IMG/VR virus record: IMGVR_UViG_3300001979_000004
Coordinates: 1 to 25,069 of that record
Length of the DNA: 25,069 nucleotides
Strand: one strand, 5' to 3'
From: a virus
The notes beneath the pieces were generated by a model that was given only the letters and a program-made list of their open reading frames with translations, made no database searches and had not been told where the DNA came from. Made by a program: the position numbers and the translations under genes. Every line of letters starts with the position of its first letter. The first letter of the stretch is position 1. Below, piece after piece: positions 5,288-23,459 of this stretch.

Positions 5288-6943
5288 TTAGGCCGGCTTG
5301 CCGGGATTATGGTAGCCAAAGCGGAAGTCGGTCGCGCCGCAGCCGAAGTCGTGTTCCACCGACATGCTGAAACCCTGCCGACCGAAAGGCTCGTCCATGC
5401 GAACGCGCGGCGCTTCGTAACCGTCGAGATAGCCCCAGCGGTAATTGGAACCGGACGCGGGATCGGCAAAGAGGTCCCAGCCCGGCCCTTCGATCTGCGA
5501 AGTTTCGACAAGCTCGAATTTGCCCGAGAAAATGTTGACCGTCGAAACCGTGGCCGGCGTGATGGAGGCCAGCAGCTTTTCCGCATTCGTGAGCTGATCG
5601 GGACCGACAAGCATGATGCGCGCCGGGTTCGCCAGCATCGGCCTGTCATCGATAGTCTTCTGTTTGCTCATGGCCTTGCGGCCCTCGCCGACGCTATCGA
5701 CGGAGATCGCCGAGGCAGCGCCGAGATTGCCGTGATCGGCATGGAAGATAGGCTTTCCATCTGCCAGCTTGCCATTGTAGGCGTCGGCATAGAAGGTGAC
5801 TTCCTCGAAGAGCGCGACCGAGGAACCGTAGCTTGTCAGAAGATCGGCGATAGCGCCGAGGTCGTCATTGATGAGCATCGGACGGCTGATGTTGAGCGCG
5901 ATGGCGTAGCTGAATACGCGCACCGATTCCTTGCCCTCGCCGAACGAGCCGTATTTGATTTCACCGTTCTCCAGCACCTTTTTCAGCATCGGGAAGTCGC
6001 CGACGCGAACGAGCGTATCCGGACGGAAGTCGCGGAAGTTTTTCTTCCGGGCAAACTTGCGGAATGTCGGCTGCGCGAGCGCATAGCGCTGCTCAAGCGT
6101 ACGGTTCACAGCACCTTCGAAGATTGCCGGGAAGTCGGAGGTTGCATGCGACGCACGCGTGAAAATGTCGTCGATGTCACGGGCGTTCAGCATGCGGCGA
6201 CCACGGAAATTGACGCTATCGGCAGCGATGTCGATAAGCCCCTGTCCCGTGAATTGCCGGGCAGCCGCAGATGGACCGTCCTTCGGCATGGGAGCGCCAA
6301 GCCCGTAGGAAAGCGCTTCGATACGGGCCGAGCGGATCGTTTCGCTTTGATCCTGCCCGACCTGCGCCCGTACATGGCTGTCAGTTTTAACCGACTGGTC
6401 CTTGTCGAACAGCTTTTCGAACAGCGCCGAGCGGAAAGCCTCTACCGACGTGCCAGCGCGGATGTGCTCGCGGCCGAAGTCAGAAACACCCGCGCGGGCT
6501 GCGAGTTCGTCAATCGTCGCCGACCGCGTGCGCTCGGCAAGAATGCCTTGCTGCTCGGCGTCGGCATTATGATTGAGCGGCGGCGTAACCGGCGCGTTGC
6601 GTGCAGCGTTTTCGAGCGTGGTAATCTCGCTGCGGACTTGTTCAATTTCCGCAAGGATACCGGCATGGTCCTGCTCGATAGCGCGAGCGGCCTCGCTCGA
6701 CAGGCCGTCCACCAGTTCGCTCCGCTTTTTCTCGGCGCGGCTGGTCAGGTCGGTCAACTTGCTGCGCAATGCCAGTATCGCCGGAGAGGCTTGGAGCATA
6801 TGGCTTAAGCCGCCGCCCTGCAAAATGGTGTCGTGACCGATCAGTGCCGAGGCGTGAGAAGGATCGGCGGAAATGATGATGAAGGCGAGGCCGAAGCAAA
6901 GAATTGCGGCGACGGTCGCGAAAACATATGCAGCCTTTTTCAT
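5288..6943 (-). CDS. Phage major capsid protein with unusual N-terminal signal-like segment
   Basis: This encodes the shell subunit. From ATG 6943 (AAGGAA nine bases upstream) it has 551 residues; an ATG eleven codons earlier is the other choice. Residues 1-33 look like a Sec signal or membrane anchor: two Lys, an 18-residue hydrophobic core, then a possible Ala-Ser-Ala cleavage site. About residues 55-105 form a coiled-coil scaffold-like segment (SKLTDLTSRAEKKRSELVDGL...EIEQVRSEITTLENA). The body carries capsid phrases such as SDFPAIFEGAVNRTL, LTSYGSSVALFEEVTFY, KPIFHADHGNLG, LVGPDQLTNAEKLLASITP, GYLDGYEAPRVRMDEPF and VEHDFGCGATDFRFGYHNPGK. In related phages this capsid type is often fused to the prohead protease, but here the protease is a separate gene 800 bases upstream. 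An internal ATG at 6799 would remove the signal-like part but has no visible ribosome site. Confidence 0.88.
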   Translation of the reverse strand: MKKAAYVFATVAAILCFGLAFIIISADPSHASALIGHDTILQGGGLSHMLQASPAILALRSKLTDLTSRAEKKRSELVDGLSSEAARAIEQDHAGILAEIEQVRSEITTLENAARNAPVTPPLNHNADAEQQGILAERTRSATIDELAARAGVSDFGREHIRAGTSVEAFRSALFEKLFDKDQSVKTDSHVRAQVGQDQSETIRSARIEALSYGLGAPMPKDGPSAAARQFTGQGLIDIAADSVNFRGRRMLNARDIDDIFTRASHATSDFPAIFEGAVNRTLEQRYALAQPTFRKFARKKNFRDFRPDTLVRVGDFPMLKKVLENGEIKYGSFGEGKESVRVFSYAIALNISRPMLINDDLGAIADLLTSYGSSVALFEEVTFYADAYNGKLADGKPIFHADHGNLGAASAISVDSVGEGRKAMSKQKTIDDRPMLANPARIMLVGPDQLTNAEKLLASITPATVSTVNIFSGKFELVETSQIEGPGWDLFADPASGSNYRWGYLDGYEAPRVRMDEPFGRQGFSMSVEHDFGCGATDFRFGYHNPGKPA

Positions 6944-10117: not shown

Positions 10118-11896
10118 CTATAACCACTCCGATGTTGCTATCTTCTGAGCTTGTGAGGATGCCGGCGCTTGCGGCGGCGTGGATAGCTCGCCCTCGCGAT
10201 GCGCCCAATTGGGATTGACCATTTGCCGGGCGGCAAAGGCATAGACCGTGCAGTCAAGCGCCTCGTGGCGGCGACCGGGCACCGGTACGAATTGGCGGCT
10301 CGACTGCCCGCGCACATAGCGAACAACCATCTGCTCGCCCGTGACCTGCTCATACCAAACGTCCGGCAAGTCCCTCGAAAAGCGCATGGACTTCGGGCGA
10401 GCGAGGCGACCAAATATGTTGCTCTTGATGCTTTCGACACCAACGATGAAGAGACGCCCGCCCTTTACGGTCGTCTTCGAACGCTCGATCCACGGCCGGT
10501 TTCCCGCCGCTCCCTTGATAGCAAAGATGCGACGATTGAAGCGAGGGAACGCATAACGATAGACCGTTTCCATGGTCTCGCCGTCCGAACTATCTATGCA
10601 GACGGCATCGACCTTGATCACGCCGCCGAGCGGGTGCTTCCACCGGGCAGACAGCGCAAGGTCCAGTTCGGTCCACGTCGAGTGATCGTCATAACGGCCC
10701 CAAATCACGGTATGCCCGAGAATGTAGGGGATGCCCGCCTTATCCCAACCCACGAAGGTCGCTTCTAGTCGATCATCCTGCACGTCAACGCCGACGGTGA
10801 TAATGAGGACGTCGATAGGGATATTCTCAAGCCCGAAATCTTCGGCGCGCGTCGCAAGCTCGATATCGTCCAGTTCGTCGCTTTCATCCTCCCATCCTTC
10901 GGCGAGGATCGTATTCACGAACGTTTGCAGCGTCGAAGGATCATTCTTGACGGTGACAAACTCGCGCGCCAAGCGGCCCCAGGACGCATTCGGCAGAAGC
11001 GAAATCAGGGCGTTCATGCGAAAGCCGGCATGGTCCTTGACTTCCGGTCGCAGTGCTCGCCAGCGCCCGGCGGCGACCATCGCCGGTTTGTGTCTCTCGT
11101 CTATGGCGCAACCGCACTCCGGACACACATAGTAAGCCTTCTCCGGCTCGCCCTCGGGCCAATGAATGTCGCTCCATTTCAATTCGTGAAAGTGACCGCA
11201 CTCCGGACAAGGCAACTCGTAAATGCGCTTGTCCGATTGCTCGTAGGCGCGCAAGACATGACTCGTCGCCTTGTAGACAGGCGTTGACCCCATGACGATT
11301 TTGCGATCTGCGAACGAAAGCGTACGCCGCTCGGCAAGCAGGATCGGCGAGCCCTCTTTCGTCGCATCCATGCCGTCCGCTTCGTCAATGAAGAGGATAC
11401 GAACGTTGTGACGACGAAGATTTCGCGGTGCCTTTGCCGCGATGACCTTGAGGAAGCCGCCGGGAAACCGCCGAGCTAGGAGCGTATTGCGACCGCCTTC
11501 GTCGGTATCTCCCGTCAGCAAACCCCGCAGCGCAGGCGATGCGTCAAAGATCGGCTCGACATCGGAAACCATATAGTCGCGGCAGTCGGCTTCTGTTGGC
11601 AGAAGCGATAGGATGGGCGACGGGTCGTTGTAGCAGAAGCTTGCCAGCGCGCTCGTGAGCAACGTCGTGAAGCCAACACGAACCGGCTTAACCAAGGTGA
11701 CGCGTTCGATTGCAGCGCTGCCGATAGCATCCGCAATCTCGACCTGCGGCGGCCAGAGCCGGACCATGCCCGTGAGCGATGACACGCCTTCGGGCAGGTA
11801 AACGGTCTTTTCAATCCACTCCGACAGCTTCAATTTTGGAGGCGGTAGCAGACTGTCCCACAGCGCCCGCCGCAATGTCGTCAGAGCTGATTCCAT
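10118..11896 (-). CDS. Terminase large subunit, GpA family
   Basis: This is the packaging motor and cos-cutting nuclease, about 592 residues from ATG 11896 (a GTG four codons earlier, 11908, is possible). Numbering from that GTG, the deviant Walker A is KPVRVGFTT near 74-82, as in lambda gpA (KSARVGYSK), and Walker B is ILFIDEAD near 171-178. A zinc-binding pair, CPEC near 234-237 and CPEC near 262-265, is usual in GpA proteins. The nuclease part follows with GVDVQDDRLEATFVGW, AVCIDSSDG and the closing RRHEALDCTVYAFAA. GpA-type terminases act on cos sites, so this phage should have cohesive ends. The start lies within the end of the small-subunit gene, which is compatible with coupled translation. 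Confidence 0.96.
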   Translation of the reverse strand: MESALTTLRRALWDSLLPPPKLKLSEWIEKTVYLPEGVSSLTGMVRLWPPQVEIADAIGSAAIERVTLVKPVRVGFTTLLTSALASFCYNDPSPILSLLPTEADCRDYMVSDVEPIFDASPALRGLLTGDTDEGGRNTLLARRFPGGFLKVIAAKAPRNLRRHNVRILFIDEADGMDATKEGSPILLAERRTLSFADRKIVMGSTPVYKATSHVLRAYEQSDKRIYELPCPECGHFHELKWSDIHWPEGEPEKAYYVCPECGCAIDERHKPAMVAAGRWRALRPEVKDHAGFRMNALISLLPNASWGRLAREFVTVKNDPSTLQTFVNTILAEGWEDESDELDDIELATRAEDFGLENIPIDVLIITVGVDVQDDRLEATFVGWDKAGIPYILGHTVIWGRYDDHSTWTELDLALSARWKHPLGGVIKVDAVCIDSSDGETMETVYRYAFPRFNRRIFAIKGAAGNRPWIERSKTTVKGGRLFIVGVESIKSNIFGRLARPKSMRFSRDLPDVWYEQVTGEQMVVRYVRGQSSRQFVPVPGRRHEALDCTVYAFAARQMVNPNWAHREGELSTPPQAPASSQAQKIATSEWL

Positions 11897-12545
11897 TGTC
11901 TTCGTCACCGAGTCCGGTAAGCGCCGATCTGATTTCGCGGTCGATCAGGTCAACGTCGTAAGTGGTGAGGTGTGGAAGGAGCTGGCGACAGCGCGAAGGG
12001 ACCGAAAGCATGCCGTTGCGGATGCGACGACCGAGCGAAGTCCATTCGTGCCGCACGTCAGCAATCGCAATCAGTTCCCGACGAAGCGCCGCATTCTTCA
12101 ACGCGGTTTGGTCGGCCTGCTCTCTCGCCAGACGCGTGCGCTCCGCAGTCAATACGTCGGAGCCGTCGCCGGTTCGTCCGGCTGCGACCATGCGAAGATG
12201 CTCGCAGTAGAGTTGAACCGACCGAGCCATGTCGAAGCGATTCCGTTCTGTCTTCGCAACGATTCCACGCTCGACAAAATCGGAGATCGCCCGCTTTGAA
12301 ACACCAAGCAATTCCGCCAACTCCGATGCGGTGATTTCGCCGTCGCCGGCGTCCGTCGTCTCGCCTTCCGGTGCTTCCGACTGCTCCAACAGCGTGGTTT
12401 GGTCCGCCGCTGCCTGTTTCTTGTGCGCTTTGGCCGCATAGCTTGGGCTGACATCGAATTTTTCGGCCGCATCGCGAACGGAATGGCCCTCATCCATGTA
12501 GGCGATGACCTGCAAACGAAGTTCTTCGGGGTAGCTCTTAGCCAT
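11811..12545 (-). CDS. Terminase small subunit, Nu1-like, with an extra N-terminal HTH domain
   Basis: This 244-residue protein joins two DNA-binding parts. Residues 1-45 (YPEELRLQVIAYMDEGHSVRDAAEKFDVSPSYAAKAHKKQ) read like the helix-turn-helix at the start of IS630-type transposases. After an acidic linker, residues 68-155 match Nu1-type small subunits: EITASELAELLGVSKRAISDFVERGIVAKTERNRFDMARSVQLYCEHLR and the helix ERTRLAREQADQTALKNAALRRELI. The Nu1 domain recognises cos and recruits the large subunit. Lambda Nu1 is 181 residues, so the extra N-terminal domain is real added length. The C-terminal region overlaps the terminase large gene by about 90 bases. The likely target site lies in 12546-12709. 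Confidence 0.88.
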   Translation of the reverse strand: MAKSYPEELRLQVIAYMDEGHSVRDAAEKFDVSPSYAAKAHKKQAAADQTTLLEQSEAPEGETTDAGDGEITASELAELLGVSKRAISDFVERGIVAKTERNRFDMARSVQLYCEHLRMVAAGRTGDGSDVLTAERTRLAREQADQTALKNAALRRELIAIADVRHEWTSLGRRIRNGMLSVPSRCRQLLPHLTTYDVDLIDREIRSALTGLGDEDNGISSDDIAAGAVGQSATASKIEAVGVD

Positions 12546-12660
12546 CTGATTCCGATTCCACCGAAAGAGCGGCGGAATCCCCTTATGATTTTTTTCACAG
12601 AGCGAAATCCCGCAGTCGCGCGCACCCGCTAATCGTCCTCTTTCGGGGGAAGGACCCGCC

Positions 12661-12693
12661 CGAGGGGGGCGGCGGGTGACGGTCGCCGAGGGG
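12661..12693. other. Possible cos site region
   Basis: The 164-base space before the small terminase gene has no reading frame and is very GC-rich. It contains GGGCGGCG (12667-12674), identical to the first eight bases of the lambda cohesive end. Directly after it comes the 13-base imperfect palindrome GGTGACGGTCGCC (12675-12687). Lambda cosN is also a GC-rich imperfect dyad next to the Nu1 gene. The short match could be chance in GC-rich DNA, and orientation relative to the terminase genes is not that of lambda, so this is only a candidate. Confidence 0.35.
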
Positions 12694-12709
12694 TCGAAGA
12701 GTCGGCCTG

Positions 12710-13279
12710 TCAGGGCACGAGCTTGGTCAATGCGGCTTCGACCCGCTCTTTGAGCAGCGGTGCCGCGACCCGATGGAAGGCGGCAGACGTTGCGCCCTTG
12801 GTCATCTCCTGCGGGATGAACACGCCAGAGCGGGCAAAGGTAATCTTCGTGCCCGCAGTGTTCAGACGGTAGAAGACATGCCCGTTGAAGTGAGAGACAA
12901 CCTTGCGGTCAGGGAACAAGGCACCACGCATGAACGTGCCGGGATAGAGCGTCGGCTTGCCGAATGGCCTCGCCACTACCCCCGCCGGGGTTTCCTTGGG
13001 GCGAAGGTACTTCAGGCGAATGTTGCCGCCCTTCGTCACCATCTCGTAGTAAAGCTTGCCCGGTCGCGCCGACGATGGATTGCCAATCGCCTTGACGATG
13101 GTCGCACGCGGCAGGCCGGTTTGCTTGGTCAGCTCGCGAACGACAACCGTCTTGGCGCGACCACCCACCTGATTGACGATGCGCGGCAAGACCTTCGGGA
13201 AACGGTCTTTCAGCTCCCCAATGCGCCTGCCGTATTCCGAAAGGTTACGGTCAACCCATTGCATGGATATCGCGGTCAT
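12710..13279 (-). CDS. Tail protein Z-like (lambda gpZ / prophage tail Z)
   Basis: ATG 13279 has AGGTGGGG eight bases upstream, which decides the start and gives 189 residues, close to lambda gpZ (192). The sequence matches the Prophage_tailZ pattern: a helix with FPKVLPRIVNQVGGRAKTVVVRELTKQTGLPRATIVKAIG, the beta stretch LYYEMVTKGGNIRLKYLRPKETPAGVVARPFGKPTLYPGTFMRG and a final GHVFYRLNT. gpZ is a tail completion protein in lambda. Here it lies upstream of the terminase genes instead of beside the tail terminator, which is unusual. It is the first gene after the terminator at 13307-13331. Confidence 0.85.
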   Translation of the reverse strand: MTAISMQWVDRNLSEYGRRIGELKDRFPKVLPRIVNQVGGRAKTVVVRELTKQTGLPRATIVKAIGNPSSARPGKLYYEMVTKGGNIRLKYLRPKETPAGVVARPFGKPTLYPGTFMRGALFPDRKVVSHFNGHVFYRLNTAGTKITFARSGVFIPQEMTKGATSAAFHRVAAPLLKERVEAALTKLVP

Positions 13280-13306: not shown

Positions 13307-13331
13307 AAAAGGCGATCCCGTGGACCGCCTT
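13307..13331 (-). terminator. Intrinsic terminator between NusG-like gene and late operon
   Basis: On the minus strand, AAGGCGGTCC, loop ACG, then GGATCGCCTT form a ten-base stem with a single G-U pair, followed by TT and CTG so that TTTT trails the GC-rich core. This is the clearest intrinsic terminator in the window. It lies 28 bases ahead of the gpZ-like start, downstream of the NusG-like gene, where it would cut late transcription unless RNA polymerase is modified. The rest of the space to 13507 holds a small CTCTC/GAGAG hairpin (13382-13395) and no gene I can support. Confidence 0.8.
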
Positions 13332-13507
13332 CGATACGATGATGATTTTGGCAATGCAGTAGCACCGGCCTTGAATCGCTGCTCTCATTCGAGAGAGTCA
13401 AGGCAGGGTCCACCCGGCTTAACAGCGTGGAAGCTTTTGGCTCCGCTCGCCTGCCCCGAAGGTGGCGCGCTTGCACATGGACGGTAGATCATCCTGGCCA
13501 TTGCATC

Positions 13508-14185
13508 TCACAACTTTTCCAAGAGTGCAAGAGGGGCGTCTACAAGGTGCACCTTGCCGAAAAGTTCCAGCTTGACGACGGCACCCGTTGCCATGCGCTC
13601 GCCGCCGAACGAACGGCCCTTGCGCATTTTGCAGATGATCCCTGCCAACTTCGCGAAGGGGCCAAAGGTGAAGCGGACTGCATCGCCGCGACCGAACTGC
13701 TTGCAGTGATCCCGATCCGGCGCATCATCGAACGCCTTGAATCGAAGGATTTCTTGTTCGGAGACACGATGCGGCGAGATCATACCGCCGACGAAGCCAG
13801 CGACCCCGTCCACCCGGCAAATACCGCATACCGCAGCCGGCGAATAGACGATGTTGACCATCACATACCCAGGCAGTAGCGGGCGCATCACGTCAGCAAC
13901 CACCTTGCCGCGAACGACCTGTTGCCCGACGTTTTCGAGCGGCAAAAAAACCTTCACGCCGGCCTTGTGAAGTGCCTCTTCAACAACTTTTTCCTGCCTG
14001 TGCTTTGTCTCGAGCACGAACCATTCGCGCTTTCCCGGCTGATTTTCCGTCGCCATCGACAGCATCGTCGCCTTGATTCGCTTACGGTCGCGCACCTGAT
14101 CGAACAGCGATGCAAAGCGCGTCAGGTCGTAAGCCTCTGGATTGACCGGTTTGCTGGCAGCGTAGATTTTCACGTTATGCATCAT
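13508..14185 (-). CDS. Phage NusG/RfaH-like transcription antitermination protein
   Basis: ATG 14185 (or the adjacent ATG 14182) follows GAGGGA and gives about 225 residues. Residues about 52-150 are a NusG N-terminal domain: REWFVLETKHRQEKVVEEALHKAGVKVFLPLENV, then RPLLPGYVMVNIVYSPAAVCGICRVDGVAGFVGG, the RNA-polymerase-binding core. Residues about 178-225 are a KOW-type end (FGRGDAVRFTFGPFAKLAGIICKMRKG...VKLELFGKVHLVDAPLALLEKL). A leading 50 residues are extra. NusG paralogues such as RfaH act on particular operons by making polymerase ignore terminators. Last in the early operon and directly before a terminator and the late genes, this one is a strong candidate for the phage's late antiterminator, the job done by Q in lambda. 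Confidence 0.85.
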   Translation of the reverse strand: MMHNVKIYAASKPVNPEAYDLTRFASLFDQVRDRKRIKATMLSMATENQPGKREWFVLETKHRQEKVVEEALHKAGVKVFLPLENVGQQVVRGKVVADVMRPLLPGYVMVNIVYSPAAVCGICRVDGVAGFVGGMISPHRVSEQEILRFKAFDDAPDRDHCKQFGRGDAVRFTFGPFAKLAGIICKMRKGRSFGGERMATGAVVKLELFGKVHLVDAPLALLEKL

Positions 14186-15395
14186 CGGAATTTCCCTCGT
14201 TAACTTGCCGTTCAAAAGCAGACCACGCCTCACCAACCGCCATGTCCAAATCCGTGATTTCGGATGAGACAGGCGGGAAAAAGAACCACTCGATGCCAGA
14301 AGGAGCCGCCAACCACGGCAGGCCCATGCGAGCGAAAAAGCGCTCCCATGCCTCGCATAGCGCGCCGTTACGGCGAACGTTGTCGAAGCCTTCCGAGATC
14401 CGGAAAACGTTTGGAGTGACCGTCATGCCCTTACGGTCTTGAGCGCGCTCGTCCATGGTGTTGACCTTGGGCCAGCCATGCTTGGCGCGGCGTTCTCGCA
14501 GGATCGCTTCGGCCTTTTCGCCGCCTTCCGCCACAAGCGACCGCAGCAAAGGTGGCAATGCCGGCATGGTGGTCGAGGCCGGTTTCAGCAGCTCAGCGCA
14601 ACGCCCGGCATGCCACGCTCTGGTGAAGGGACCATGGACGCTTGGCAGGGCGACGTCCGATTTCGGGTCTTCGAGCTTTTCCCAATCGCGGCCGGTCAGA
14701 AACGCACCTGCCCACGGAACCGAGATTTTCGCTTTCTCGGCACGCTCGATGTAGGTCGGCGACTTTGCGATGCATTCGGCCCGCTGCTCCGGCGAGAGCT
14801 TCTGCCATGCCTTCCGGGCAGCATATTCGCTGTCCTTGTCCCGCGTCGGCCATTTGGCGTACCAGCGGCGAAAGGCACGCTCGACCGCTTCCGGCTTTTC
14901 GTCCGAACCTTCGTCGCGCGCATCTCTCTCTTGCTGATAATCAGTATTTGCTAGATGTAAGTTATTACTATGTGCCGATTTTGCCGGCGACGGTAAAACC
15001 GGCGACGGTTTTGCCGGCGCCGGCATTTCAGTCTGCGGTAGAATTGCAACACTTTCGCCGCCCTCGCCTGCCGTTCCGTCGTCCGCAACAGCACGCGGCT
15101 CGTCAAAGATGACCAGATTGGATGCACCGAACTTGCCATCCGCACGCGATTGCTCGCGCTCGGCATAGCCGAACTCGACAAGCTCGGCGATCATCTTCCG
15201 CGCCTTATCGCGCCCGCATCCGCCCTTCTTGATGATGTCGCCGATCACGACGGTCCAGTTGTCCGGCTTGGACAAGAGATAGCCGAGCAGCCAGCGCGCT
15301 TCCATGGAGAGCCGGTCATCCTCGAAGACGTGATTGGGAACGGCGGTATAGCGGGCGTTGCGCACGCCGCGCCGGATAGTTGCCTCGCTGCTCAC
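14175..15395 (-). CDS. Replication-initiator-like protein with N-terminal winged helix
   Basis: This gene starts at a GTG overlapping the upstream stop (GTGA) and encodes 406 residues. Residues 14-85 form a winged helix-turn-helix typical of phage replication O-like proteins: YTAVPNHVFEDDRLSMEARWLLGYLLSKPDNWTVVIGDIIKKGGCGRDKARKMIAELVEFGYAERE. A Pro/Ala-rich linker follows, then a helical section (RRWYAKWPTRDKDSEYAARKAWQKLSPEQRAECIAKSPTYIERA) common in rhizobial phage proteins of this type, and an undefined C-terminus. It probably binds the phage origin and loads host replication proteins. No repeated origin is obvious within the gene. Its end overlaps the NusG-like start, including that gene's ribosome site. 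Confidence 0.78.
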   Translation of the reverse strand: MSSEATIRRGVRNARYTAVPNHVFEDDRLSMEARWLLGYLLSKPDNWTVVIGDIIKKGGCGRDKARKMIAELVEFGYAEREQSRADGKFGASNLVIFDEPRAVADDGTAGEGGESVAILPQTEMPAPAKPSPVLPSPAKSAHSNNLHLANTDYQQERDARDEGSDEKPEAVERAFRRWYAKWPTRDKDSEYAARKAWQKLSPEQRAECIAKSPTYIERAEKAKISVPWAGAFLTGRDWEKLEDPKSDVALPSVHGPFTRAWHAGRCAELLKPASTTMPALPPLLRSLVAEGGEKAEAILRERRAKHGWPKVNTMDERAQDRKGMTVTPNVFRISEGFDNVRRNGALCEAWERFFARMGLPWLAAPSGIEWFFFPPVSSEITDLDMAVGEAWSAFERQVNEGNSDDA

Positions 15396-18265: not shown

Positions 18266-18513
18266 CAGATCGCCCTCATCAATCGATCGAGGTAGGCTTG
18301 CCCGAGGCCAGTCAGCTTCGCAGTCCGTTCGTCTTCGCAAATATGGAGATAGCCGCAGCGGCGGCATTCCTGCGCGAGTTGGCGACGACCGAGGCCGGTT
18401 GCGATTTCGACGCGCCCGCCGGAAAGCTGCACCTCACGCAGAAAACCCCTTGCGCGTTCGGACAAGGGGCGGGACATCAATTCATCAATGGCGGGATCGG
18501 TTAGAGGCTTCAT
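18265..18513 (-). CDS. Small winged-helix-like early protein
   Basis: This gene encodes 82 residues between the CII-like and methyltransferase genes, with four-base or one-base overlaps on both sides. The protein (LSERARGFLREVQLSGGRVEIATGLGRRQLAQECRRCGYLHICEDERTAKLTGLGQAYLDRLM) has the helix-helix-wing pattern of a compact winged helix, with two Cys at 50 and 58. It may be a DNA-binding regulator. No family can be named. Confidence 0.6.
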   Translation of the reverse strand: MKPLTDPAIDELMSRPLSERARGFLREVQLSGGRVEIATGLGRRQLAQECRRCGYLHICEDERTAKLTGLGQAYLDRLMRAI

Positions 18514-19007
18514 TGTCCGCCTCCAACCACATGAAAGCCGACCTTTTGTCCGCCGAGGGCTTTTACGTTGGCGAGCGCCTTGCGATACTCGGCAATGACG
18601 ATTTCCAGCTCCGCCGCATCCCGGTCCATTTTGGTCGCTTCCGCAGGCGTCACCACCAGATCGGCAATCGCTACAGCTCCGCCCGAAATCATGTCGCCGG
18701 CCTTGCGAACTGCGTCAGAGTAAGCGGCGATCAGGCTGTAATCCGCCCCGCGCTGGCCTTCCGGCTCCACAAGGCGCTTGCCGTGCAACTCCGCCATCGC
18801 TGAGGTGACGACCTGCACGCCACAATCCGATTCCAGGGCGTAGACGGCATGCAATGGCATCATTTCCGGGTCCGTCGCATTGTTCATGCGCCCGATATGA
18901 CTTTTCGAGATCGAAGAGATTTCTGCAGCTCGCTCAATGCCGCCAACGAGGCGGATGAGATCGCGTTGCGCTGCCTTGATGCGGTGAAACCATGCGGTTG
19001 ATATCAT
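18510..19007 (-). CDS. CII/CP76-like phage regulatory protein
   Basis: This 165-residue protein starts at ATG 19007, with AAAGG about nine bases upstream. Residues 12-62 resemble the Phage_CP76 (CII-like) group: AAQRDLIRLVGGIERAAEISSISKSHIGRMNNATDPEMMPLHAVYALESDCG, a helix-turn-helix that reads DNA. The C-terminal half is helical (DRDAAELEIVIAEYRKALANVKALGG). These proteins control the lysis-lysogeny choice or early transcription. A perfect dyad (19019-19035) lies right before the ribosome binding site, so expression is likely repressed or self-regulated there. It heads the early operon. Confidence 0.75.
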   Translation of the reverse strand: MISTAWFHRIKAAQRDLIRLVGGIERAAEISSISKSHIGRMNNATDPEMMPLHAVYALESDCGVQVVTSAMAELHGKRLVEPEGQRGADYSLIAAYSDAVRKAGDMISGGAVAIADLVVTPAEATKMDRDAAELEIVIAEYRKALANVKALGGQKVGFHVVGGGQ

Positions 19008-21165: not shown

Positions 21166-22002
21166 TCAAAGCAGTGATGCAAAGCGGCTGACATCCCTGG
21201 GAACAAGCAAGATGAGAATGCGACCTATGACCTCATCTGACAGTGACCTAGCCCCCTTGAATTTTAATATAGACCACGCGATTAGAATTACGAAATCATG
21301 ACCTCTACAAAACAGGCGTGGATCACCATCAAATTTCCCCCCCCATTCTAGCGCACTCTTCCATATTTCATCGATCCGATCGGCTGCTTTACTGTTAATT
21401 AGTGTGCGCTGCACGTATGTCTTATAGTCAAGTGCAACGGCTCCATCTTTTACCGAAAGATACCTTTCGAAATCGATATAATCTAGATCCAGCTTTGCAT
21501 TCCGAGCAGCGGTGCGAAGAGCAAATAACATCTTTAAGGTACTGCGGAAACTTGCATAGAAACGCTCCCAGTTTTTCACCTTCGCTTTCCCTGCATTGTT
21601 CACCAGCTCGCCAACGAAAACCTCTTCAAAGAAATATGTCTCGATATCACAAAATTCTGTCCAGAGCAGACCATTGCCTACCTCTAGCTCCCCAAGCCAA
21701 TGATCGACATCTCTGTCGACTACAAATCTCACGTTCTCCCTCTGATTTACCTGCGAAAGCTCTCGGCAGAGAATAATAAGCTTTTGCTTATTGCCACTCG
21801 TGAGCTTATGATCTTCAAATAATTTCTTATCAATTTGGACGACGTCGGCAGTATAGATCGCCCTTTTTTCAGTAGAACCATGCTCATATGCGCAAGCTAA
21901 GATGTCTTTATCAAACTGCCCTTCGACAAACACGTCGGTTAAGGTAGGTTCGAGTTCGTATCGTGTGCGCAGCTCATCAATAGTCCATCGAGGCATCTCC
22001 AT
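21166..22002 (-). CDS. ariB: DUF4435/TOPRIM-like protein, AriB of a PARIS-like defence system
   Basis: This 278-residue protein has the TOPRIM-type features of DUF4435: VFVEGQFDKDIL with Glu27 and Asp31/33 near the start, and FVVDRDVDHWLG with Asp96/98/100, the acidic metal-binding residues. A further acidic FCDIETYFFEEVF segment is typical. In PARIS, AriB is the effector: released from AriA when a phage anti-restriction protein is sensed, it cuts tRNA (reported for Escherichia coli tRNA-Lys) and stops growth. The ATG overlaps the ATPase stop (TGATG), so the pair is coupled. It is clearly A/T-richer than the surrounding phage genes, fitting separate acquisition. The rest of the molecule is not strongly diagnostic, and OLD-like systems use different nucleases. 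Confidence 0.78.
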   Translation of the reverse strand: MEMPRWTIDELRTRYELEPTLTDVFVEGQFDKDILACAYEHGSTEKRAIYTADVVQIDKKLFEDHKLTSGNKQKLIILCRELSQVNQRENVRFVVDRDVDHWLGELEVGNGLLWTEFCDIETYFFEEVFVGELVNNAGKAKVKNWERFYASFRSTLKMLFALRTAARNAKLDLDYIDFERYLSVKDGAVALDYKTYVQRTLINSKAADRIDEIWKSALEWGGKFDGDPRLFCRGHDFVILIAWSILKFKGARSLSDEVIGRILILLVPRDVSRFASLL

Positions 22003-23459
22003 CAGTAATTATTCTCCAACTTCACAACCTTATCGCGATGCTGGGAAATCAGCTCCAGAGAATGCGAAGCCAAGATAAACTGGATATCTGACCCCGACGT
22101 GATCTCCGTTAGGGACTGCAATAATTGTCGTTGCCATTTAACATTGAGAGAAATTTCGGGTTCATCGATCATAAATACGCTCGGTCGGTCGCGCGCAGTA
22201 AGAGCATAGCAAAACATCAGTATAAGCTGCTGCTCACCCGATGAAAGCTGGGAAGGCTCAAGTTTTTTAGTCGTTGTTACTATAGAAAACCCTTGAGTTA
22301 ATTTATAAATAATTTTCTTTCCGGTCAAAAACGTATTTATATTCTTAACGAATCTATCCAGTATATCGTATATTTGGGTTAACGCATCCAACCTCGACGA
22401 CACGCTCTGAATGTACGGCTTGATCAGCTCCGCCGAGAGCTCTCGTTGCTCGTTCGAATTGGACCGAAGTGACGCTTTAAATGCCTCCATGTCCAAGGCA
22501 GTCGCTAACTCATACTCCTCCATTTGGCGGGTTCGAAGTTCAATGTTTTCAAGCTTGTCAATGAGGGTTTCGAAAACGCTAGGCGATTTCGGCGAGCTTC
22601 CTTGATTATAATCACTCGAAAGGTGATGCAAAACGTCGACATAAACAGAATGAACGTTTGTCGACCCTTGGTTGGTGCTCAGAACGGCGCGGCGCTGAAC
22701 CCAGCGAGAAGCAGATACCATAGCTTGCGTTAGCGCAATCTCCCGCGCTCTGTTCACGAGATCATTTATACGCTTTGGCTCGTTATGTGTAATCGCACGC
22801 CGTAACTCCAATTCGTCGCTCGCATCGGCGACGGCATCACTATCAAGCCGTCGCTCAGCATTCACATAAAACATCGTTGGCGCAAGCTCGCTCAGGAGCT
22901 GAATGTAAGCTCGTTCACCCCGCTTGACGCCATCACTTGGTGCCCGGGACGCTGATAATTCGTCAGTTATCAATTGAAGGGCGCGCGGCGAAATCCTATT
23001 CGGATCAAAACCTTTTTCATTAAGGTATAGTGTAATTTCATTACTAGTAAGGCCGTCTGTCGCCGCAGAATTAAGATACCAATTCAACTCTTCGGTGCGG
23101 CCCTGATTATACAGCCACTCACTCAGTAACTGTCCGTCTCTTTCGATGGTCAACTTCATTGGCCCAGACGAGTAATCACCTTCCTCTGATAGGGACAGTC
23201 GCTCCGCTCTGAAGAGAACACCTGTGCTAAGCTTTACGGATAGCAGCCGAAACGCAACGGCTTTAAGAGCACTTCGATGGCTGCGATTGGTCCCAGCGGA
23301 TAGTAGATGAAATGCGAGACGGAGAATTGTGCTTTTTCCTACCCCATTATCACCATATAGTATGGCCGCGTTCGAAAAGTCACTTCGAGCGGGCAATTCA
23401 TATGAAAACTGATTAAATAAGTTCTGTACTGCTATTTGTGTTATGATGCTTTGACTCAT
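22002..23459 (-). CDS. ariA: ABC-type (SMC-like) ATPase, AriA of a PARIS-like defence system
   Basis: This 485-residue ATPase has all expected ABC/SMC motifs: Walker A GDNGVGKST at 36-44, signature LSSGEQQ at 405-411, Walker B VFMIDEPE at 428-435 and an H-loop (ASHS) at 464-467. The middle holds helices and a conserved RRLDSDAVADASDE stretch and lacks the long coiled coils of true SMC proteins. In PARIS, AriA assembles into a multimer that holds the DUF4435 partner and senses phage anti-restriction proteins such as Ocr. It begins after AGGAGG at five bases, a strong site. A possible promoter lies at 23483-23510. Together with ariB, this is a self-contained unit inserted between the excisionase and integrase genes, the usual cargo position. 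Confidence 0.8.
   Translation of the reverse strand: MSQSIITQIAVQNLFNQFSYELPARSDFSNAAILYGDNGVGKSTILRLAFHLLSAGTNRSHRSALKAVAFRLLSVKLSTGVLFRAERLSLSEEGDYSSGPMKLTIERDGQLLSEWLYNQGRTEELNWYLNSAATDGLTSNEITLYLNEKGFDPNRISPRALQLITDELSASRAPSDGVKRGERAYIQLLSELAPTMFYVNAERRLDSDAVADASDELELRRAITHNEPKRINDLVNRAREIALTQAMVSASRWVQRRAVLSTNQGSTNVHSVYVDVLHHLSSDYNQGSSPKSPSVFETLIDKLENIELRTRQMEEYELATALDMEAFKASLRSNSNEQRELSAELIKPYIQSVSSRLDALTQIYDILDRFVKNINTFLTGKKIIYKLTQGFSIVTTTKKLEPSQLSSGEQQLILMFCYALTARDRPSVFMIDEPEISLNVKWQRQLLQSLTEITSGSDIQFILASHSLELISQHRDKVVKLENNY

Follow-up and report, generated by a model that had tools for sequence, protein, structure and literature searches.

In phage lambda, a product of the early region, the Q protein, takes RNA polymerase past a terminator that precedes the late genes, and the N protein uses an RNA site (nut) in the transcript. 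Specialised paralogues within the NusG superfamily also serve as antiterminators. The exopolysaccharide operons of Bacillus contain EAR, a large structured RNA that is linked to processive antitermination, and no NusG paralogue is known to be a partner of EAR. The NusG paralogue LoaP binds a hairpin in leader RNA, dfn, with the result that an intrinsic terminator is read through (PMC12691694). In phage HK022, the put RNA is about 70 nt long, consists of two stem-loops, belongs to the early genes, occurs in two copies and requires no phage protein for its action (PMC9378689).

The locus described here lies in a viral sequence record that is 25,069 bases long and is referred to below as the window. 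It contains a gene for a NusG paralogue that is followed by a conserved structured RNA, an intrinsic terminator and the late genes of the phage. One prophage survey goes no further than to list a gene annotated as transcription antiterminator for every phiLM21-like prophage (PMC12429752). The RNA, its linkage to NusG and a phage late operon controlled by a NusG protein were not found in the open-licence literature, where absence is not proof. What is already known is the annotation of the gene as an antiterminator in databases, together with the kind of mechanism, in which a NusG paralogue and an RNA bring about processive antitermination; what is new is an RNA family, absent from Rfam, in temperate phages of rhizobia.

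Gene organization of the prophage

The window represents a prophage-type genome in which early and late genes lie on the minus strand. Counted from the repressor region, the first gene encodes a Cro-like regulator, and it is followed by genes for a CII-like activator (18510-19007; phrog_101), a DNA methyltransferase, a replication initiator (14175..15395, minus strand; phrog_270, 2e-33) and the NusG paralogue, a protein of 225 amino acids (13508..14185, minus strand; Pfam NusG, 70.2 bits; phrog_6386, 1.9e-33). The replication initiator gene is directly upstream of nusG, and since the start of nusG overlaps its end, the operon of the initiator closes with nusG. Together with the match to the NGN domain, this overlap agrees with the initial annotation, which had placed a NusG-type gene at the end of the early operon. 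The first late gene encodes a gpZ-like tail completion or Neck1 protein (12710..13279, minus strand; phrog_27, 2.3e-16), and the late operon continues with the genes for the small terminase subunit TerS (11811..12545, minus strand; phrog_57, 5e-32) and the large subunit TerL, which is of the gpA type (10118..11908, minus strand; PF05876 and PF20454). The presence of these three genes on the same strand bears out the earlier suggestion that the late genes follow the terminator.

The records of the related phages PPF1 and Rivra open immediately upstream of the gene for the small terminase subunit and close immediately behind the minor-tail or HNH genes. Since these deposited genomes begin and end at the place that corresponds to 12546-12709 in the window, between the first late gene and the TerS gene, this interval probably holds the cos site, and the presumed site would then fall inside the late transcription unit, as it does in lambda. 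The same interval is GC-rich. Elsewhere, beside the integrase gene, the prophage carries a two-gene pair (21166-23459, minus strand) that resembles the PARIS anti-phage defence, one gene encoding an AAA_21/AAA_15 ATPase of 485 amino acids (PADLOC AriA, 2.6e-24) and the other a protein of 278 amino acids with a match to AriB (3.3e-9).

A conserved RNA between nusG and the terminator

The interval between nusG and the terminator is not an ordinary spacer and encodes a conserved structured RNA (13356..13494, minus strand), which extends from a GGATGA anchor to a helix termed P8, is conserved in 22 close loci and in distant phages, and shows covariation. The anchor (13489..13494, minus strand), conserved as GGAYGA, is followed by the 5' strand of helix Pa (TCTACC; 13483..13488, minus strand), which shows compensatory changes with the 3' strand of that helix (GGTGGA; 13409..13414, minus strand). 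Pa encloses a branched domain (P2-P4; 13415..13482, minus strand) that varies in sequence between classes and was recovered with RNAalifold in one class and also in close relatives, and the 3' strand of Pa is followed by a conserved CCC. Helix P6 is formed by GCCTTGA (13398..13404, minus strand) and TCAAGGC (13368..13374, minus strand) and has helix P7 between its strands (CTCTC-GAAT-GAGAG; 13382..13395, minus strand), with covariation in both helices. The last helix, P8 (GC-TACT-GC; 13356..13363, minus strand), has a GNRA-like tetraloop in many relatives and is too conserved for covariation to be informative.

In the close set, which consists of 23 viral loci obtained by protein search with NusG proteins that are 65-89% identical, the mean column identity over the approximately 200 nt past the NusG stop codon is 83%, compared with 82% for the proteins themselves. 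The core of the RNA consists of GCCYTGA, a hairpin, CGAYTCARGGY, AGTGC, a tetraloop and GC, and the same core is present in phages whose NusG is merely 25-37% identical, namely Sinorhizobium phage phi3LM21, Nostoc phage Nsp-JY10, Mesorhizobium phage vB_MseS-P1, Rhizobium phage PPF1 and Agrobacterium phage Rivra. These five phages and phi2LM21 also have the order of the cassette in common. The 'Nostoc phage Nsp-JY10' (locus L026, PP395642.1) carries the same NusG-RNA cassette as phages of Rhizobiaceae; the cyanobacterium given as its host may be an error, and that the true host was a rhizobial contaminant is a guess. Searches of Rfam 15 gave no family match in the window or the RNA element, nor at the RNA of eight further loci, and a known riboswitch or other known RNA family was rejected as the identity of the element.

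Covariation was assessed in 81 non-redundant regions in which the register of pairing was set by sequence anchors and not by pairing. In these regions, the five to six nucleotides directly after GGAYGA pair with those directly before the conserved CCC, as in TCTACC/GGTAGA, GCTGA/TCAGC, TCCGA/TCGGA, TGCGG/CCGCA, TCCCA/TGGGA, GTAGGA/TCCTAC, GCCAG/CTGGC and GATGA/TCATC. Of the Pa cells, 82% are paired, compared with 59% (maximum 64%) when whole strands were swapped among sequences. When Pa, P6 and P7 were considered together in 38 diverse rows, 88.3% of cells were paired (76.5% in shuffled rows), 98 cells were changed on both sides (31.7 in shuffled rows) and covariation was 0.407 (0.186 in shuffled rows), each value being reached in 0 of 500 shuffles; relatedness stays in these shuffles, and P8 and most of P6 vary so little that they are beyond covariation testing. 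Shifted registers, which served as a control, gave 20-54% pairing. For a class of 25 sequences, RNAalifold independently recovered Pa, the inner branched domain, P6/P7 and P8. When 69 divergent sequences were aligned globally with MAFFT, the same program gave almost no structure (-4.8 kcal/mol), which is why the anchor-fixed comparison was needed. An antiterminator pairing of GGAUGAUC with the 3' arm of the terminator, suggested by RNAalifold for close relatives, was rejected as a general mechanism because the anchor is conserved even where the terminator differs or is absent.

The initial annotation had singled out the hairpin at 13382-13395 as the candidate signal for recruitment of an RfaH-like factor. 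The hairpin is present and, as helix P7, is conserved and covaries, with changes on both sides in four of its five pairs. Taken alone, however, it is weak (z=-1.6), and the signal would be the folded RNA of about 130 nt rather than a DNA hairpin on an exposed strand.

Linkage of the RNA and NusG

Association of the RNA with NusG was examined from both directions. Viral contigs were scanned for the RNA core with a degenerate pattern of 23 bases, with no reference to the protein, and at least 119 stretches were found. Among the matches listed, taken together with loci from the comparisons above, 136 loci have enough upstream DNA, and in every one of them an HMM recognised a NusG open reading frame on the same strand that ends 90-153 nt upstream. 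In the opposite direction, a match to the RNA model was present directly downstream of NusG in 92 of 93 loci from two NusG subgroups in viral contigs, and in the sole exception (L224) the sequence ends 114 nt after the NusG gene. No RNA match was obtained in two records of fecal phages whose NusG is distant; these records belong to another group.

In bacterial genomes, a covariance model of the RNA (R1) gave 48 matches in 44 of 396 Rhizobiaceae genomes (about 11% of the sample). At higher taxonomic ranks, two strong matches were found among 397 genomes of the order and only the starting genome was matched among 385 genomes of the class. NusG was directly upstream of every strong match whose locus was examined in bacterial genomes (30 of 30) and was absent at 10 of 10 weak matches of 22-27 bits; these weak matches are the only instances of the RNA without NusG and are taken as noise. 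Three genomes (G877, G908 and G1162) have two or three RNA matches each, on separate contigs or far apart, which suggests that several prophages with the same switch reside in one host. Per phage, the RNA is a single-copy element, since exactly one RNA was found in each of 28 phage records and no extra copies occur elsewhere in those genomes.

Distances among the RNAs and among the NusG proteins are correlated (Mantel r=0.72, null maximum 0.16), with linkage itself contributing to the correlation. Between close relatives, NusG and the RNA are kept while the identity of the replication initiator falls from about 85% to about 35% or that of TerL from about 90% to 23%. As judged by these comparisons, NusG, the RNA and a terminator form one cassette at the boundary of early and late genes in more than 100 phages, and the NusG-RNA pair stays together as flanking genes get exchanged. 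The initial annotation had called for a search of related prophages for the order NusG, terminator and late genes and for conservation of the interval, and it is this common cassette that the search revealed.

It is conceivable that the RNA alone brings about antitermination by binding RNA polymerase, and that NusG has a general role in elongation on phage DNA or in protection from Rho. Such an arrangement has a precedent in put, a folded phage RNA that works without a phage protein (PMC9378689), and the structure of the element described here is conserved far beyond the needs of a simple loading hairpin. An independent RNA would not require a NusG gene directly upstream, however, and the RNA is never found without one, nor is the NusG of this group found without the RNA where this can be tested. 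As the types of RNA and NusG also vary together, action of the RNA alone is unlikely.

The terminator and the late genes

The intrinsic terminator that separates the RNA from the first late gene (13308..13332, minus strand) has the sequence AAGGCGGTCC-ACG-GGATCGCCTT-TTCTG. Its stem consists of 10 perfect base pairs at 13309-13331, or 11 base pairs at 13308-13332 if a G.U pair is included, and its stability of -16.7 kcal/mol was equalled by none of 200 shuffles, so that the ten-base-stem terminator of the initial annotation is well supported. The GC-rich stem, the short loop and the short T-tract represented by the tail TTCTG are those of an intrinsic terminator. A generic scan for promoters and terminators missed the hairpin at 13308-13332 because of its strict T-tract rule and was uninformative.

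In related loci, a terminator-like hairpin was found within 140 nt past the RNA in 84 of 132 cases, compared with 52 of 2640 random windows from the same loci, in a strict count that misses weaker T-tracts. Four loci (L026, L087, L141 and L147) have a terminator of unrelated sequence at the same place. Inspection by eye revealed no terminator close after the RNA in seven loci (L027, L058, L060, L094, L103, L109 and L126), and readthrough of that one hairpin therefore cannot be the sole role there. In several of these seven loci an open reading frame begins about 20 nt past the RNA.

The gene next after the RNA in relatives encodes an HNH endonuclease, a gpZ-like protein or a minor tail protein, and the genes for TerS and TerL follow. 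TerL is on the same strand in all 43 loci that have 3 kb of downstream DNA, 26 of the proteins being of the gpA type and 17 of another type. A single class of the RNA is found before several different first late genes. In two loci (L020 and L021), an HNH-type gene replaces the gpZ gene directly past the terminator, after position 6684, with NusG, the RNA and the terminator kept, so that the boundary of the exchanged module is the terminator itself.

In the window, 28 nt separate the terminator stem from the ATG of the first late gene (13279), and these contain the Shine-Dalgarno-like AGGTGGGG. The terminator is so near the first late start codon that not much space is left behind it for a promoter, and expression of this gene therefore most plausibly needs readthrough. 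This spacing bears on the possibility that the RNA serves the nusG mRNA as a 3' element for autoregulation or stabilisation and that the late genes have an activated promoter of their own. In every case the nusG transcript has the RNA in its 3' untranslated part, and the linkage, taken by itself, would be equally compatible with autoregulation of nusG. The RNA always precedes late genes, however, and the terminator abuts the first late gene in most loci, leaving in the window only the 28 or so nucleotides for a promoter; moreover, the function of the NusG family is in elongation, not mRNA stability. A role confined to the nusG mRNA is accordingly very unlikely.

The NusG paralogue

The NGN domain of the phage protein matches the Pfam NusG profile with E=2e-19 and a score of 70.2 bits, for which the cut-off is 22.2 bits, and residues 45-225 match positions 5-179 of the 179 positions in the PHROG 6386 'transcription antiterminator' profile. 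An AlphaFold2 model computed with 52 relatives (pLDDT 89, pTM 0.79) predicts an N-terminal extension with a helix at residues 21-43, an NGN domain and a KOW-like C-terminal beta-barrel. By its profile matches and predicted fold, the protein is a member of the NusG/Spt5 superfamily with an NGN domain and a KOW-type C-terminal domain. Its scores are below the NCBIfam cut-offs for housekeeping NusG (TIGR00922, 46.6 versus 135.7 bits), RfaH (TIGR01955, 47.8 versus 144.5 bits), LoaP (NF033641, 38.8 versus 125 bits) and UpxY (NF033644, 62.2 versus 100 bits). Five host genomes of relatives each encode a separate housekeeping NusG of about 104 bits in addition to the phage NusG of 53-76 bits.

The structural comparison with RfaH that had been proposed gave a divided result, in that Foldseek matches the predicted protein to RfaH as well as to NusG, but the fold predicted for the C-terminal domain is a beta-barrel. 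The barrel is predicted with high confidence, and fold switching to an autoinhibited alpha-helical state of the RfaH type is compatible with the prediction. Matches to the ops site with one mismatch number four in the window, compared with 4.15 expected by chance, and an ops-like DNA signal was rejected on that count. RfaH-like recruitment of an autoinhibited paralogue by a hairpin of the non-template DNA strand within a paused bubble, rather than by RNA, is most improbable: the NGN fold resembles that of RfaH and short conserved anchors, GGAYGA among them, could be recognised as DNA, but the covarying strands of Pa are separated by about 40-110 nt, which is more than a single transcription bubble would span, the C-terminal domain is a predicted beta-barrel, the RfaH cut-off is missed and ops sites do not exceed chance. 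The likeness to RfaH drawn in the initial annotation is not supported on these grounds, and a folded RNA would take the place of the DNA signal.

A proposed switch for the late genes

Given the precedent of LoaP, the membership of the protein in the NusG superfamily and a folded, single-copy RNA that has so far not been separable from the gene, RNA-directed processive antitermination is proposed. It is likely, from the sequence comparisons above, that the phage NusG paralogue together with the nascent RNA is a processive antiterminator of the late operon that resembles LoaP rather than RfaH. Somewhat less confidently, we favour the view that a polymerase made persistently resistant to termination by a NusG paralogue and a large RNA of a new family, folded during transcription, represents a new class of late switch, one that would replace lambda Q and a nut- or put-type site and would form a self-contained module before unrelated sets of late genes.

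In this proposal, the early transcript would pass through the replication initiator gene and nusG into the RNA of about 130 nt. The RNA would fold behind RNA polymerase, with Pa closing the branched domain and P6/P7 and P8 forming afterwards. As long as there is too little phage NusG, polymerase would halt at the intrinsic terminator before the first late gene. After enough NusG has built up, it would load on the elongation complex with the aid of the folded RNA, and the modified complex would read through the terminator, the presumed cos interval and the operon for terminase, head and tail. We infer the binding of NusG to the RNA, antitermination by the resulting complex, its processivity and the location of the promoter. 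Since Pa begins 22 nt after the start of the nusG stop codon, the promoter must be inside nusG or further upstream, and it could be the early promoter or one within or upstream of nusG. In phages that lack a nearby terminator, the processive complex may act at later terminators.

The proposal provides a testable answer to the question of how these phages switch on late genes without a Q protein. If it is correct, RNA-directed antitermination by NusG proteins, which is known from LoaP in Bacillus, extends to phages of Alphaproteobacteria. As the RNA is far more elaborate than the LoaP hairpin, it could reveal the way in which a particular RNA is recognised by an NGN-KOW factor, and the compact NusG-RNA pair would be a candidate readthrough tool for rhizobia.

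Comparison with known systems

RfaH and ActX share with the phage protein membership in the NusG family as paralogues and, in the proposed role, the target-restricted activation of a long operon. They differ in their recruitment by ops DNA and their alpha-helical C-terminal domain, neither of which was found for the phage NusG, and the phage protein misses the RfaH cut-off. The phage RNA differs from EAR in that it is without any Rfam match. The put RNA of HK022 is similar as a folded nascent phage RNA that alters the response of RNA polymerase to terminators, which is here a proposed activity, but the NusG-linked RNA is a single-copy element that stands before the late genes and is always accompanied by NusG. 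With lambda Q the cassette has in common an early product and a terminator before the late genes, and with N and nut an RNA site in the transcript; the proteins are unrelated, however, and the phage cassette uses a NusG paralogue and a large structured RNA.

LoaP and dfn differ from the phage cassette in several respects. The dfn element is one small hairpin of the UNCG type, whereas the phage RNA is a multi-helix element of about 130 nt; the target of LoaP is an antibiotic operon rather than phage late genes, and the two systems occur in different bacterial phyla. In addition, the phage nusG is directly upstream of its own RNA, and its product scores 38.8 bits with the LoaP model, for which the cut-off is 125. 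Both systems nevertheless combine a NusG paralogue with a hairpin-containing leader RNA and an intrinsic terminator before a long operon, and in both the paralogue is encoded beside its target, which for the phage is a proposed one.
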